Shown here piece after piece: positions 6,208 to 11,117 of a stretch of 32,812 nt of DNA. The first letter of the stretch is position 1. Every line of letters begins with the position of its first letter. Both the position numbers and the translations under genes were made by a program. The DNA comes from Vicinamibacteria bacterium (lineage in GTDB: Bacteria > Acidobacteriota > Vicinamibacteria > Fen-336). The notes below the pieces were generated by a model. That model was not told where the DNA came from, did no database searches, and saw nothing but the letters and a program-made list of their open reading frames with translations. The stretch lies in assembly GCA_035570235.1 (NCBI GenBank), contig DATMML010000127.1, positions 1 through 32,812 of the forward strand, in the 5' to 3' direction.

Positions 6208-7167
6208 ATGTCCCGTAATATCGCCCGCCAGGTCTTGGAGATCGAGGCCCAGGCCATCCGCGATCTGCTCCCGCGCATCGACGCCGACTTCGAGCGCGCG
6301 GTGGAGACGGTGTTTGCCTGCGCGGGGCGGGTCGTCGTGACCGGGATGGGCAAGAGCGGCCTCATTGGCCAGAAGATCTCCGCCACTCTTTCCTCGACGG
6401 GGACGCCCTCTCTCTTCCTGCACCCCGCGGAGGCCATCCACGGGGACCTGGGTCGGATCGTCAAGGGGGACGTGGTTCTCGCCATTTCCTACAGCGGCGA
6501 CACGGGCGAGGTCCTGACCCTCGTACCCCAGGTCAAGCGCCTGGGCTCGCCGCTGGTGGCCCTGACCGGCAACCCACGCTCCCCCCTGGCCGGCGCGGCC
6601 GACATTCACCTCGACGTGTCGATCCGCCAGGAGGCCTGTCCCCTCGGGCTTGCTCCCACCGCCTCCACCACCGCCGCCCTCGCCATGGGCGACGCCCTCA
6701 GCATGGCCCTCCTGGAGCGGCGCGGCTTCACGGTGGAGGACTTCGCGGTGCTCCACCCCGGGGGTCGGCTGGGGAAACGGCTGCTGCGGGTGGAGGACGC
6801 GATGCACACCGGCGACGACATCCCGCGGGTGACCCCCGAGACGCTCATGAAGGATGTGCTCTTCGAGATGACCCGGAAGCGCCTGGGCCTGACCACCGTC
6901 ACGGACGGGGACGGCCGGCTCCGAGGGGTGATTTCGGACGGGGACCTCCGCCGGCAGATGGAACGGCACGGGTACACCCTCTTCGACCGCTCGGCCGGAG
7001 AGTGCATGACCCGGGACCCCGTCCTGGTGGGCCGCCGGGAGCTGGCCACGCGGGCCCTGGACTTGATGGAGACCCGCAAGATCACCGCCCTGCTCGTGGT
7101 CAACGAGGCGGGGGTCATCGAGGGAGTCCTGCACCTGCACGACCTCTGGAAGACGGAGATGATCTGA
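6208..7167 (+). CDS. kdsD: D-arabinose-5-phosphate isomerase (KdsD/KpsF/GutQ family)
   Basis: Interconverts ribulose-5-phosphate and arabinose-5-phosphate, the first step of Kdo synthesis. The 319-aa protein is the usual length. The N-terminal SIS domain (about 35-165) contains GMGKSGLIGQKISATLSSTG and SYSGDTGEV; DFAVLHPGGRLGKRL then matches the family's conserved His region. Two CBS domains follow (about 200-319), with DGDGRLRGVISDGDLRR and the terminal GVLHLHDLW. It comes after a 129-bp gap with its own promoter and lacks a visible ribosome-binding site. It could in principle be a capsule-type KpsF, but kdsC directly downstream supports the Kdo role. Confidence 0.95.
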   Translation: MSRNIARQVLEIEAQAIRDLLPRIDADFERAVETVFACAGRVVVTGMGKSGLIGQKISATLSSTGTPSLFLHPAEAIHGDLGRIVKGDVVLAISYSGDTGEVLTLVPQVKRLGSPLVALTGNPRSPLAGAADIHLDVSIRQEACPLGLAPTASTTAALAMGDALSMALLERRGFTVEDFAVLHPGGRLGKRLLRVEDAMHTGDDIPRVTPETLMKDVLFEMTRKRLGLTTVTDGDGRLRGVISDGDLRRQMERHGYTLFDRSAGECMTRDPVLVGRRELATRALDLMETRKITALLVVNEAGVIEGVLHLHDLWKTEMI

Positions 7168-7180
7168 GTGGGGCCGGTCA

Positions 7181-7726
7181 ATGGTCAGTAACGATGAGGC
7201 CCTGGCCCAGCGCTGCCGCGCCCTGAAGCTCATCCTGACCGACGTGGACGGAGTGATGACGGACGGGACGGTGCTCCTGCTTCCCGACGGTCAGGAGGCC
7301 AAGTCCTTCCACATCCGCGACGGGCTCGCCATCGTGATGGCCCGACGGGCGGGGCTTCTGACCGGGCTCCTCTCCGGGCGCGTCTCCGAGGCGGTGGCCC
7401 GGCGCGCGGCCGAGCTGGAGATGGCCGTGGTCCGGCAGGGCATTTCGAACAAGGGCGCCGCCCTCCGCGAGATCCTGGCCGAGCAGGGCCTGACCGCCCA
7501 AGAGGTGGCCTACATCGGCGACGACCTCAACGACCTGCCGGTCATGAACGCGGTGGCCCTGTCCGCCGCCCCCGCCGACGCCCCCTTCGAGGTGCGGGCC
7601 CAGGCCTTCATGATCATGGAGGCGAGGGGCGGCGGGGGCTGCCTGCGCGAGTTCGTGGAAGCGATCCTGCGCGCCCGGGGAGACTGGGAGCGCGCCGCGG
7701 CCGCGGTCGGCGTGCTCGCGCCTTGA
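7181..7726 (+). CDS. kdsC: 3-deoxy-8-phosphooctulonate phosphatase (KdsC)
   Basis: Removes phosphate from Kdo-8-phosphate to give free Kdo for KdsB. The 181-aa HAD-superfamily phosphatase has motif I LTDVDGVMTDG (nucleophile and acid/base Asp), HIRDGLAI, motif II LLSGR, then SNKGAALREIL and motif III IGDDLNDLPVM with the metal-binding Asp pair. These are diagnostic for the KdsC group, which lacks a large cap domain and works as a tetramer. The 13-bp gap after kdsD has only a poor G-rich ribosome-binding site. The C-terminus has an Ala-rich tail, and the stop overlaps the TTG start of the next gene (TTGA). Confidence 0.95.
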   Translation: MVSNDEALAQRCRALKLILTDVDGVMTDGTVLLLPDGQEAKSFHIRDGLAIVMARRAGLLTGLLSGRVSEAVARRAAELEMAVVRQGISNKGAALREILAEQGLTAQEVAYIGDDLNDLPVMNAVALSAAPADAPFEVRAQAFMIMEARGGGGCLREFVEAILRARGDWERAAAAVGVLAP

Positions 7727-8907
7727 CGGACACCGCCCTCCTCGCGGTCCTGCTGGCCGGGATCGCGGGCGTGCTGGCGGGACGGGCTTGGGCCGCCGGT
7801 CGGCGGCGGGGCAACTCCCGGGGCCGGCCCGGCCTCCTCTCCTCCCCCCACTACACCCAGGGGTTGCACTACCTGGCCGCCGGTCAGCTCGAGCTCGCCA
7901 TCAGCGAGCTGACCAAGGTGACCCGGGAGGACAAGGACGCGGTGGAGGTCCTGCAGGTGCTGGGCCATCTCCTCCGGGAGGCGGGACAGGTGGAGCGCGC
8001 CATCCACCTGGACCAGGACCTGCTCGCGCGGGGCGACCTGACCCGCGCGGAGCGGGCCCGCGCCCTGGCCAGCCTGGGCACCGACTTCCGCAAGGCGGGG
8101 TTTCTCGACCGGGCCACCCACACCTTCGGAGAGGCCCTCGCGGTGGACGCCAAGAACATCCACGCCCTCACCGGCCAGCAGAAGCTGCACGAGGAGCAGC
8201 GCCAGTGGCGCGAGGCTTACGAGGTCCAGACCCGGCTGGCCCGGTTGCGGAAGACGAACGACAGCCTCGTGCTGGGCTTCCTCCAGGCGGAAATGGGCCG
8301 GGAGGCGGCCGCCGCCGGCCACCCCGGGGAGGCCGAGAAGTCCTTCCAGACCGCCCTCTCCCTCGACCGCCGCGTCTTCCCCGCCTACCTCGGGCTCGCC
8401 GACCTCTGCGCGGCCAGCAACCCCCGCAAGGCGGCGGCCATCCTGGAGGACGCCATCCAGGCGGTGCCCGAGCGGGCCTACCTCACCTTTGACCGCCTCT
8501 CCCACGCCTACGCGGCCGCGGGTGAGCCCTCGGGTTTCACGACCCTCTGTGAGCGCATCATTGGTCAGGACCCCCAGGAGTGGCGGGGCCGCCTGGCCCT
8601 GGCCCGTCACCTGCGCGCCCAGGGGAAGACGGAGGAGGCCCTCGGCCTCCTCCTCCGCGCGGTCGAAGCCAACCCCCAGGTGCTGATCGTGCACCTGGAG
8701 GCCTGGCGGACGCTGCGCGCCCGCGGCTTGACCGAGGAGGCAGTCCGCTACGTCTCGGTGGCGGAGGAGTCCGTCTTCTACGCCGATCCCCACATCTGCA
8801 CTGCCTGCCGCTACCGGGCGGACGACATGTTCTGGCGGTGCCCGCACTGCCACGAGTGGAACACCTTCGTGGAGGAGCGGCTGGGGCTGGCGGCGGGGAC
8901 GCGCTAG
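7723..8907 (+). CDS. lapB: LapB/YciM-like TPR protein with C-terminal rubredoxin-type metal site
   Basis: The 394-aa protein has one N-terminal membrane anchor (about 4-25), then TPR-type helical repeats (about 45-345), and ends with a four-cysteine site Cys359-X2-Cys362 and Cys373-X2-Cys376 in a rubredoxin-like module. Order, length (E. coli LapB 389 aa) and metal site match LapB, an inner-membrane adaptor that controls LPS amount by directing LpxC to the FtsH protease and connecting LPS synthesis and transport. The gene starts with TTG overlapping the kdsC stop, so it is the coupled last gene of the Kdo operon. Its TAG stop overlaps the stop of convergent coaE. Family assignment is strong; the LpxC role here is inferred. 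Confidence 0.88.
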   Translation: MTDTALLAVLLAGIAGVLAGRAWAAGRRRGNSRGRPGLLSSPHYTQGLHYLAAGQLELAISELTKVTREDKDAVEVLQVLGHLLREAGQVERAIHLDQDLLARGDLTRAERARALASLGTDFRKAGFLDRATHTFGEALAVDAKNIHALTGQQKLHEEQRQWREAYEVQTRLARLRKTNDSLVLGFLQAEMGREAAAAGHPGEAEKSFQTALSLDRRVFPAYLGLADLCAASNPRKAAAILEDAIQAVPERAYLTFDRLSHAYAAAGEPSGFTTLCERIIGQDPQEWRGRLALARHLRAQGKTEEALGLLLRAVEANPQVLIVHLEAWRTLRARGLTEEAVRYVSVAEESVFYADPHICTACRYRADDMFWRCPHCHEWNTFVEERLGLAAGTR

Positions 8908-10193
8908 CCCGGCGCCTCGGGGGCGGGGTGCTCGCGCCCCTGGAGGCCGGCCATGCCGTCCACGGCCTCGAGCAGGGGCGGGGGTACCGTCTCCCCGGAC
9001 ACCCCCGCAGCCAGGCCCACCAAGGCCCCCCCCAGATCCGCCCCTTCCCCCTGGCCGCCCAGGGCGGCGCGGGCGGCGCGCGGGTCCCGGGGATGCTCCC
9101 GGGCGGCGTCGAAGACCGCGTCGAGCGACGCGGACGGAGGGCCGCCACCCCACCGATCGGCCAGGGTGCGCCAGGAGGCTCGTCGGTTCCGAAGATCGTC
9201 GGGTAGACCGCCCGCGACCGCGGCCTCCTGGAGGGCCAGCGCGAACACGATGGCGGTGGCCAAGGAGTCCGGTTCCGAGTGGGTGAGGCGGGCAAGGGAC
9301 GCGCTCGCCGCGGCCAGGAAGGGCGGGTCGGGGCCCCCGCGCGCGAGGGCCCACAGCACGACCGGCAGGGCCAGGGTGGCGGGACCGGGCGCGGGGTCGG
9401 GATGGCCGGCGGGGCAGCGATACCAAGCGTCCGGGCAGGGGGGCAGCAACCGTCGACCGATCCGTTCCATCTCGAGCCCGCCCGCGGAGGCGATCTCGGT
9501 CAGGAGGGTCAGGGGGTCGAGCCCGCGCGGGCCCGCGCTCGGCCCGTAAAGGAGGCCGCCCAGCCACCGCTCGCGGGGAACCTCCACGCGGAGGGGGCCA
9601 GCCGCGGCCAGGGCGCGGAGGTCGCGCAAGAGCGCGTCCGCGGCCCGGTTGGTGTCCGCCATCCTTCCTGACGTGTCCACCTCAAAATGGGCGAAGCGCC
9701 GCTTCTCCTCGATCGGCATCTGGGCGGCCAGGCGCGCCCGGGCTGAGGCTTCGTCCAGTCCGTCGCGCTCCCGGAGTCGACGGCGCTGCTCGGCCGGCGG
9801 GCAGTGCACCACCACCAGACGATCGAAGCGCAGGTGCACCCCCGCTTCCACGAGCAGGGCGCCATCGGTCACGAGCACGGGCCCGCGGGCGGCGGCGGCC
9901 CAGCGCGCCTCCTCCTGCCGGACCCGGGGGTGGACGATCGCGTTCAGGCGGGTGCGCACGCCGGCGTCCGCGAAGGCGATCATCCCCAGAGCCCTGCGGT
10001 CTATCCGCCCCTCGGAGTCCAGAACCGGCGGCCCGAAGGCGGCGCGGAGCTCGTCGTAGGCGGCCCCACCCGGGGCCATGACCGCGCGCGACACCTGGTC
10101 CAGGTCCAAGGTGTCGAGGCCGCCTTCCGCCAGCCGCTTCAGTACATGCGACTTCCCACAAGCTATGCCCCCGGTGAGGCCCACGCGAAGCAT
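8904..10193 (-). CDS. coaE: Dephospho-CoA kinase fused to an ADP-ribosylglycohydrolase-like domain
   Basis: Residues 1-195 are a CoaE kinase, the last step of CoA synthesis: P-loop GGIACGKS (8-15), DLDQVSRAVM with PGG, HPRVRQE, and an R-rich segment before the AQMP lid. Family members end near residue 200. Here about 230 more residues follow. These resemble the ADP-ribosylglycohydrolase fold: WLGGLLYGPSAG (210-221), PVVLWALARGG, LARLTHSEPDS (300-310), and GEGADLGGALVGLAAGVSG with VPPPLLEAV near the end. The metal-binding TDDT and DADT motifs of active ARH enzymes are missing, so this half is probably not a hydrolase. I chose ATG 10193 over GTG 10205 because MLRVGLTGG is the usual beginning. 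It follows folD by 18 bp. Confidence 0.9.
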   Translation of the reverse strand: MLRVGLTGGIACGKSHVLKRLAEGGLDTLDLDQVSRAVMAPGGAAYDELRAAFGPPVLDSEGRIDRRALGMIAFADAGVRTRLNAIVHPRVRQEEARWAAAARGPVLVTDGALLVEAGVHLRFDRLVVVHCPPAEQRRRLRERDGLDEASARARLAAQMPIEEKRRFAHFEVDTSGRMADTNRAADALLRDLRALAAAGPLRVEVPRERWLGGLLYGPSAGPRGLDPLTLLTEIASAGGLEMERIGRRLLPPCPDAWYRCPAGHPDPAPGPATLALPVVLWALARGGPDPPFLAAASASLARLTHSEPDSLATAIVFALALQEAAVAGGLPDDLRNRRASWRTLADRWGGGPPSASLDAVFDAAREHPRDPRAARAALGGQGEGADLGGALVGLAAGVSGETVPPPLLEAVDGMAGLQGREHPAPEAPG

Positions 10194-10211: not shown

Positions 10212-11117
10212 TCAGGGTTGCGCAGCCGCGGCCACCGTGTTCTTCATGAGCATCGCGATGGTGAGAGGACCGACCCCCCCCGGCACGGGGGTGAGGGCGG
10301 AGGCCACTTCGGCGACGGATGGGGCGTGCACATCGCCCACGAGGGCGTAGCCCTTCTTTGCGAACGCCGCCATCCTCGTCTCGTCAAGCAAATCGCGGGC
10401 CTGCGCCGGGTCATCCACCCGGTTCATCCCCACGTCCACGACCACCGCCCCCGGTTTCACGTGCGCGGCCCGAACCAGGCCCGCTCGACCCATCGCCGCC
10501 ACCAGGATGTCCGCTTCCCGGGTGACGGCCGGGAGGTCGGGGGTGCGCGAGTGGCAGACGGTCACGGTAGCATCGGCGTGCATGAGGAGCAGAGCCATCG
10601 GCTTGCCCACGATGTCACTCCGTCCCAGGACCACGGCCCGCCGCCCGGAGACGACGATGCGGTTCCGGGCCAGAAGCTCCATGATTCCGGCCGGCGTGCA
10701 GGGAACGAAGCGGGGGCGCTTCTGGACGAGGCGGCCCACGTTCTGGGGGTGAAAGCCGTCCACGTCCTTGGCCGGGTCCACGAGGTCGAGGACCCGGAGG
10801 GTCTCCACTTGTGGAGGCAGCGGCAGCTGCACGAGGATCCCGTGGATGTCCGACCGCCGGTTGTAGTCCTCGACCACCCGGGCCACCTCGGCCGTGGAGG
10901 CGTTCACCGTGAGATGGCGCGTCTCGTGACGGATCCCCAGCTCCTCGCAGGAGCGGGTCTTGCTGCGCACGTAGATCGCGGAGGCGGGATCCTCCCCCAC
11001 CAGGAGCACGCCCAGGCCCGGCCGGACCCCGCGCGCCTCCAGCGCGCGGATGCTCTCGCGAACCTCCTCGTTGATGGCCAGGGCGGTGGCTCGGCCGTCC
11101 AGGAGCATCGCGCTCAT
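10212..11117 (-). CDS. folD: Bifunctional methylenetetrahydrofolate dehydrogenase/cyclohydrolase
   Basis: Converts 5,10-methylene-THF to 10-formyl-THF in one-carbon metabolism. The 301-aa protein has the catalytic YVRSK (Tyr49, Lys53), GILVQLPLPP, DPAKDVDGFHP, CTPAGI, the NADP-binding segment VLGRSDIVGKPMA, and the family's terminal PVPGGVGPLTIAML. The frame is open far upstream, but MSAMLLDGR at ATG 11117 is the normal FolD beginning, and that ATG overlaps the stop of the upstream membrane-protein gene (ATGA), so translation is probably coupled. coaE follows 18 bp after the stop. The combination of folD with envelope genes looks like operon packing rather than a functional link. Confidence 0.97.
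   Translation of the reverse strand: MSAMLLDGRATALAINEEVRESIRALEARGVRPGLGVLLVGEDPASAIYVRSKTRSCEELGIRHETRHLTVNASTAEVARVVEDYNRRSDIHGILVQLPLPPQVETLRVLDLVDPAKDVDGFHPQNVGRLVQKRPRFVPCTPAGIMELLARNRIVVSGRRAVVLGRSDIVGKPMALLLMHADATVTVCHSRTPDLPAVTREADILVAAMGRAGLVRAAHVKPGAVVVDVGMNRVDDPAQARDLLDETRMAAFAKKGYALVGDVHAPSVAEVASALTPVPGGVGPLTIAMLMKNTVAAAAQP

Follow-up and report, generated by a model that had tools for sequence, protein, structure and literature searches.

We identified a gene in which the only dephospho-CoA kinase (CoaE) of a soil bacterium continues, in the same reading frame, into a second domain that by Pfam and predicted structure has the fold of the ADP-ribosylglycohydrolase (ARH) superfamily. 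The gene lies on the minus strand at 8904–10193 of the window, the 32,812-nucleotide stretch of DNA that was analysed; positions 8907–10193 translate as an uninterrupted frame of 429 aa with a stop codon at 8904–8906, and the plus strand of 8904–10193 contains in-frame stops. Neither a sequencing error nor faulty gene calling accounts for the fusion, because it recurs without interruption in independent assemblies of all 14 family genomes examined.

A dephospho-CoA kinase with an ARH-fold tail

The kinase half (residues 1–198, 9600–10193, minus strand) matched Pfam PF01121 over residues 4–179 (E = 1.8e-44, 152 bits against a cut-off of 27), and the fused protein scored 120 bits with TIGR00152 against a cut-off of 65.6, which assigns it to CoaE. 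The P-loop GGIACGKS (residues 8–15, 10149–10172, minus strand) was present in every family member whose contig reaches that position. The predicted structure of this half was compared with solved CoaE structures, giving a Z score of 21 and matches that included the Mycobacterium paratuberculosis enzyme (6n39). Given that this gene is the sole CoaE in the host genome (5.7 Mb, 99.6% complete), the kinase half is predicted to be functional and to phosphorylate dephospho-CoA. A second CoaE copy that would have freed the fused gene to diverge was ruled out by the same count.

The tail, a pseudo-ARH domain at residues ~203–421 (8931–9587, minus strand), matched PF03747 (ADP_ribosyl_GH) over residues 257–385 (34.4 bits; gathering score 26.2). 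A profile of the tail was aligned by hhalign to canonical ARHs of the host's own family and phylum, with E = 1.1e-6 over residues ~255–411, and a PDB sequence search with the tail only gave no significant match. AlphaFold returned a mean pLDDT of 92.8 and a pTM of 0.90 for the full chain with the family alignment, suggesting that the two domains are held in a fixed arrangement, and an ARH fold with a pLDDT of 92.1 for residues 197–429 alone. In Foldseek, DraG was the top match of the predicted tail (E = 2e-3, probability 1.00). Structural comparison with human ARH3 gave a Z score of 18.3 and an rmsd of 2.9 over 209 aligned residues, followed by DraG, ARH1 and other ARH-fold chains; every neighbour down to Z 14.2 had the ARH fold, and the next row was at Z 4.4. 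The predicted fold of the tail is thus that of ARH1, ARH3 and DraG (PF03747) over about 209 residues, and the relationship is recognisable by sequence in its second half. The NCBIfam model PRK03333 aligned to residues 1–191 only, reaching 155.6 bits where the cut-off is 215, and a UPF0157 identity of the tail was ruled out by the absence of a Pfam match to UPF0157/GrpB.

The first-pass annotation, made from the letters of the DNA, had described one frame coding for CoaE and an ARH-like domain, which the scores of both Pfam families above their cut-offs bear out, and had expected an ARH-like fold for the tail, with which the models agree. Its statement that CoaE normally ends near 200 residues also holds, as unfused CoaE proteins of relatives end near 200–216 aa (~202 aa in the sister family and ~202–216 aa in another family of the class). 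It named no strand for the gene, which is on the minus strand. The landmarks that it quoted were located at residues 212–217 (GGLLYG), 300–305 (LARLTH) and 384–400 (GADLGGALVGLAAGVSG).

Loss of the ARH active site

ARHs have characteristic metal motifs and a usual domain length of 290–360 residues (PMC9738213, PMC7050489), whereas the tail spans ~220 residues, lacks the metal motifs and the GNG loop and is fused to a kinase. TDDT, the catalytic Glu or Glu flap, GNG and DxDT were found neither in the window protein nor in the relatives covering those positions, so the first-pass annotation was right that TDDT and DADT (DxDT) are missing, and the protein lacks the metal motifs of active hydrolases, TDDT (SDDT) and DxDT. 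Where active ARHs carry the Glu flap and TDDT, the tail has the family-specific GPRGLDP (residues 221–227, 9513–9533, minus strand), and the Glu-flap region is deleted. The position of the DxDT metal motif is taken by GADLGGALVGLAAGVSG (8994–9044, minus strand), which was aligned to GGDxDTxAAxxGA by both hmm and hhalign. In the profile–profile comparison with canonical ARHs, the segment GADLGGALVG aligned to the same motif; GEGADLGGALVG was likewise set against GGDxDTxAAxxGA and a GPxP loop against GNGS, and a second alignment gave the same register. The GNG loop that contacts ADP-ribose has thus become GPG-P.

The one ARH motif that is kept is LTH (residues 303–305, 9279–9287, minus strand), with L and T in 11 of 11 aligned family tails and H in 10 of 11. 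By motif, its histidine (His305) is the probable equivalent of ARH3 His182, which adjoins the ADP-ribose phosphates (PMC5727137). Family-specific conserved motifs were also found in the tail, namely GPRGL, PPxxGPWYRAAR, LWxLARxGxD and RWGG. From these motif comparisons, the tail is predicted to persist as a pseudoenzyme from which the dinuclear metal site and most contacts to ADP-ribose have gone. Its PF03747 match would nevertheless suggest an ADP-ribosylglycohydrolase annotation for the gene, and caution is warranted.

The inactivated pocket might still bind the substrate, the product or an ADP-ribose-type signal and thereby tune the kinase. Dephospho-CoA, CoA, ADP-ribose and NAD all carry an ADP moiety, and its presence in both dephospho-CoA and ADP-ribose gives the idea of such sensing its appeal. 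The ARH fold binds ADP-ribose, structures of ARH3 in complex with ADP-ribose or ADP match the tail at Z 18, and the retained LTH histidine and the strongly conserved GPRGL, GPWYRAAR and RWGG would fit such a pocket. Against it, every metal ligand and the GNG loop are gone, three genomes lack LTH, in these three and in G008 the C-terminal quarter of the domain is missing, and a cis-regulatory role of the tail was tested and excluded in Mycobacterium CoaE (PMC2765170). We therefore consider a regulatory pocket for an ADP-containing ligand unlikely, and the fuller proposal, a dead ARH domain serving as an internal sensor of an ADP-containing metabolite (dephospho-CoA, CoA, NAD or ADP-ribose) and so controlling the final step of CoA synthesis, rather unlikely. 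The sensing of NAD or ADP-ribose raised in the first-pass annotation has found no support so far: the metal motifs and the Glu flap are lost, only the LTH histidine is kept, and one genus (three genomes) has a truncated domain without even LTH.

Distribution and descent of the fusion

All 14 genomes examined of one Vicinamibacteria family (Acidobacteriota) carried the in-frame tail without internal stops; contig ends cut three of the 14 copies at the N-terminal side. The tail profile gave no CoaE-fused match among 179 further genomes of the class, nor beyond the family in a phylum sample of 396 genomes, and the order-mates of the family lacked the tail on CoaE. Two phylum matches outside the family at E ~1e-4 (L147 and L148) were rejected as fusions, since they are canonical ARHs that retain TDDS/TDDT and DxDT. 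A bacterial pseudo-ARH thus appears to be fixed across a whole family.

In the window, coaE follows folD (10212–11117, minus strand) after a gap of 18 bp; the order folD–coaE is kept in relatives, and the two genes are likely co-transcribed. The stop codon of coaE is overlapped by 4 bp by a convergent LapB-like TPR gene (7723–8907, plus strand). This gene is the last in a row at 6208–8907 on the plus strand, after genes for a SIS/CBS protein (KdsD-like) and a HAD phosphatase (KdsC-like); the row is convergent with coaE, and its order is conserved in relatives. Unfused relatives have the same folD–coaE arrangement next to lapB or kdsC, and no ARH gene lay between folD–coaE and lapB/kdsC in those checked by synteny, which rules out separate coaE and ARH genes there. 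The concern that a sequencing error had joined two genes is thus answered by relatives that carry the fusion itself and not adjacent separate genes.

The pseudo-ARH might also serve as a docking module through which CoaE is tethered to a partner protein. A precedent for docking by an ARH fold is DraG–GlnZ, solved ARH-fold chains occur in the chloroplast Ycf2–FtsHi motor and in a trypanosome mitoribosome assembly intermediate, and 3o5t, 8xqw and 6sga were among the structural neighbours of the tail. The conserved family-specific motifs and the precedent of ARH2/ADPRHL1, a known pseudo-ARH with non-catalytic roles, would also suit docking, but no linked partner gene was found and folD, lapB and kdsC flank tail-less CoaE in relatives as well. 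We regard this reading as distinctly improbable.

Pairwise distances of tail and kinase were correlated (r = 0.68, a value reached in 0 of 2000 permutations), and this agreement of the trees, together with the distribution, fits a single fusion event that was then inherited vertically. Mean identity was 37% for the tail versus 60% for the kinase, and in moderately diverged pairs dN/dS was about 0.3–0.5 for the tail versus 0.26–0.32 for the kinase, rough values because dS approaches saturation in most pairs. These estimates point to purifying selection on the tail that is looser than that on the kinase. G005, G011 and G013, which belong to one genus, have an eroded tail that lacks LTH and the last ~60 residues; G008 is truncated much as in this genus, and the G002 tail stops earlier than the rest.

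The greater divergence of the tail and its truncation in G005, G011, G013, G008 and probably G002 could also indicate that it is no longer needed, the remnant of a fused ARH that once functioned and now decays under weak selection. However, the frame is open in all 14 genomes, dN/dS is below 1, invariant residues are common to several genera and the fold predicted by AlphaFold is confident, so that a decaying remnant seems no less improbable than a docking module.

A possible structural role

As the preferred explanation, to which we give about an even chance, the pseudo-ARH tail would be a structural-support pseudoenzyme for CoaE. An ARH domain would have been gained once at the C-terminus of a working dephospho-CoA kinase, in the common ancestor of this Vicinamibacteria family. 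The domain would then have lost its dinuclear metal site and most of its contacts to ADP-ribose, and it may now pack on the kinase and aid its folding, stability or oligomeric state. This role is favoured because the unrelated C-terminal UPF0157 domain of Mycobacterium CoaE is required for a soluble, active kinase, other tested roles having been ruled out (PMC2765170). By this analogy, a role in folding or stability is better supported than NAD or ADP-ribose sensing. On the other hand, related CoaEs (f2 and f10 relatives) manage without a tail, and the conservation of GPRGL, PPxxGPWYRAAR and RWGG, which seems to go beyond the needs of a passive tail, could mark a putative binding site and thus also argues against structural support.

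The Mycobacterium CoaE (Rv1631, CoaE–UPF0157/GrpB) is likewise a single polypeptide of CoaE and an extra C-terminal domain of ~210 residues, and 6n39 matches the kinase half of the fused protein; its tail has the GrpB fold, whereas that of the window protein is predicted to have the ARH fold. The vertebrate heart protein ARH2/ADPRHL1 is similarly an ARH-family member without catalytic residues that was retained by evolution, but it is stand-alone and eukaryotic and has no link to CoA. CoaE proteins with tails and pseudo-ARHs are therefore each known separately, and as far as our searches show their combination is undescribed; no published description of a CoaE–ARH fusion was found, which is weak evidence of absence because most subscription journals lay outside the search. 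Besides UPF0157, a second and unrelated fold has thus been recruited as a tail of the essential enzyme CoaE, and the fusion offers a way to test whether such tails generally assist folding or act as regulators.

Another ARH fusion in the family

The host genome (L111, G000:C94:48156-48932) and relatives (L127–L132 and L134) also encode a protein of ~600 aa in which a phosphatase-like domain, judged by eye to be of the inositol-monophosphatase type, is joined to a complete ARH domain. The metal motifs of the host copy are altered, with SADT for TDDS and DTDH for DTDT. In one relative (G003:C98:32407-33139, L134 and L142), the phosphatase–ARH gene is split over two reading frames, possibly by a frameshift or an assembly error.
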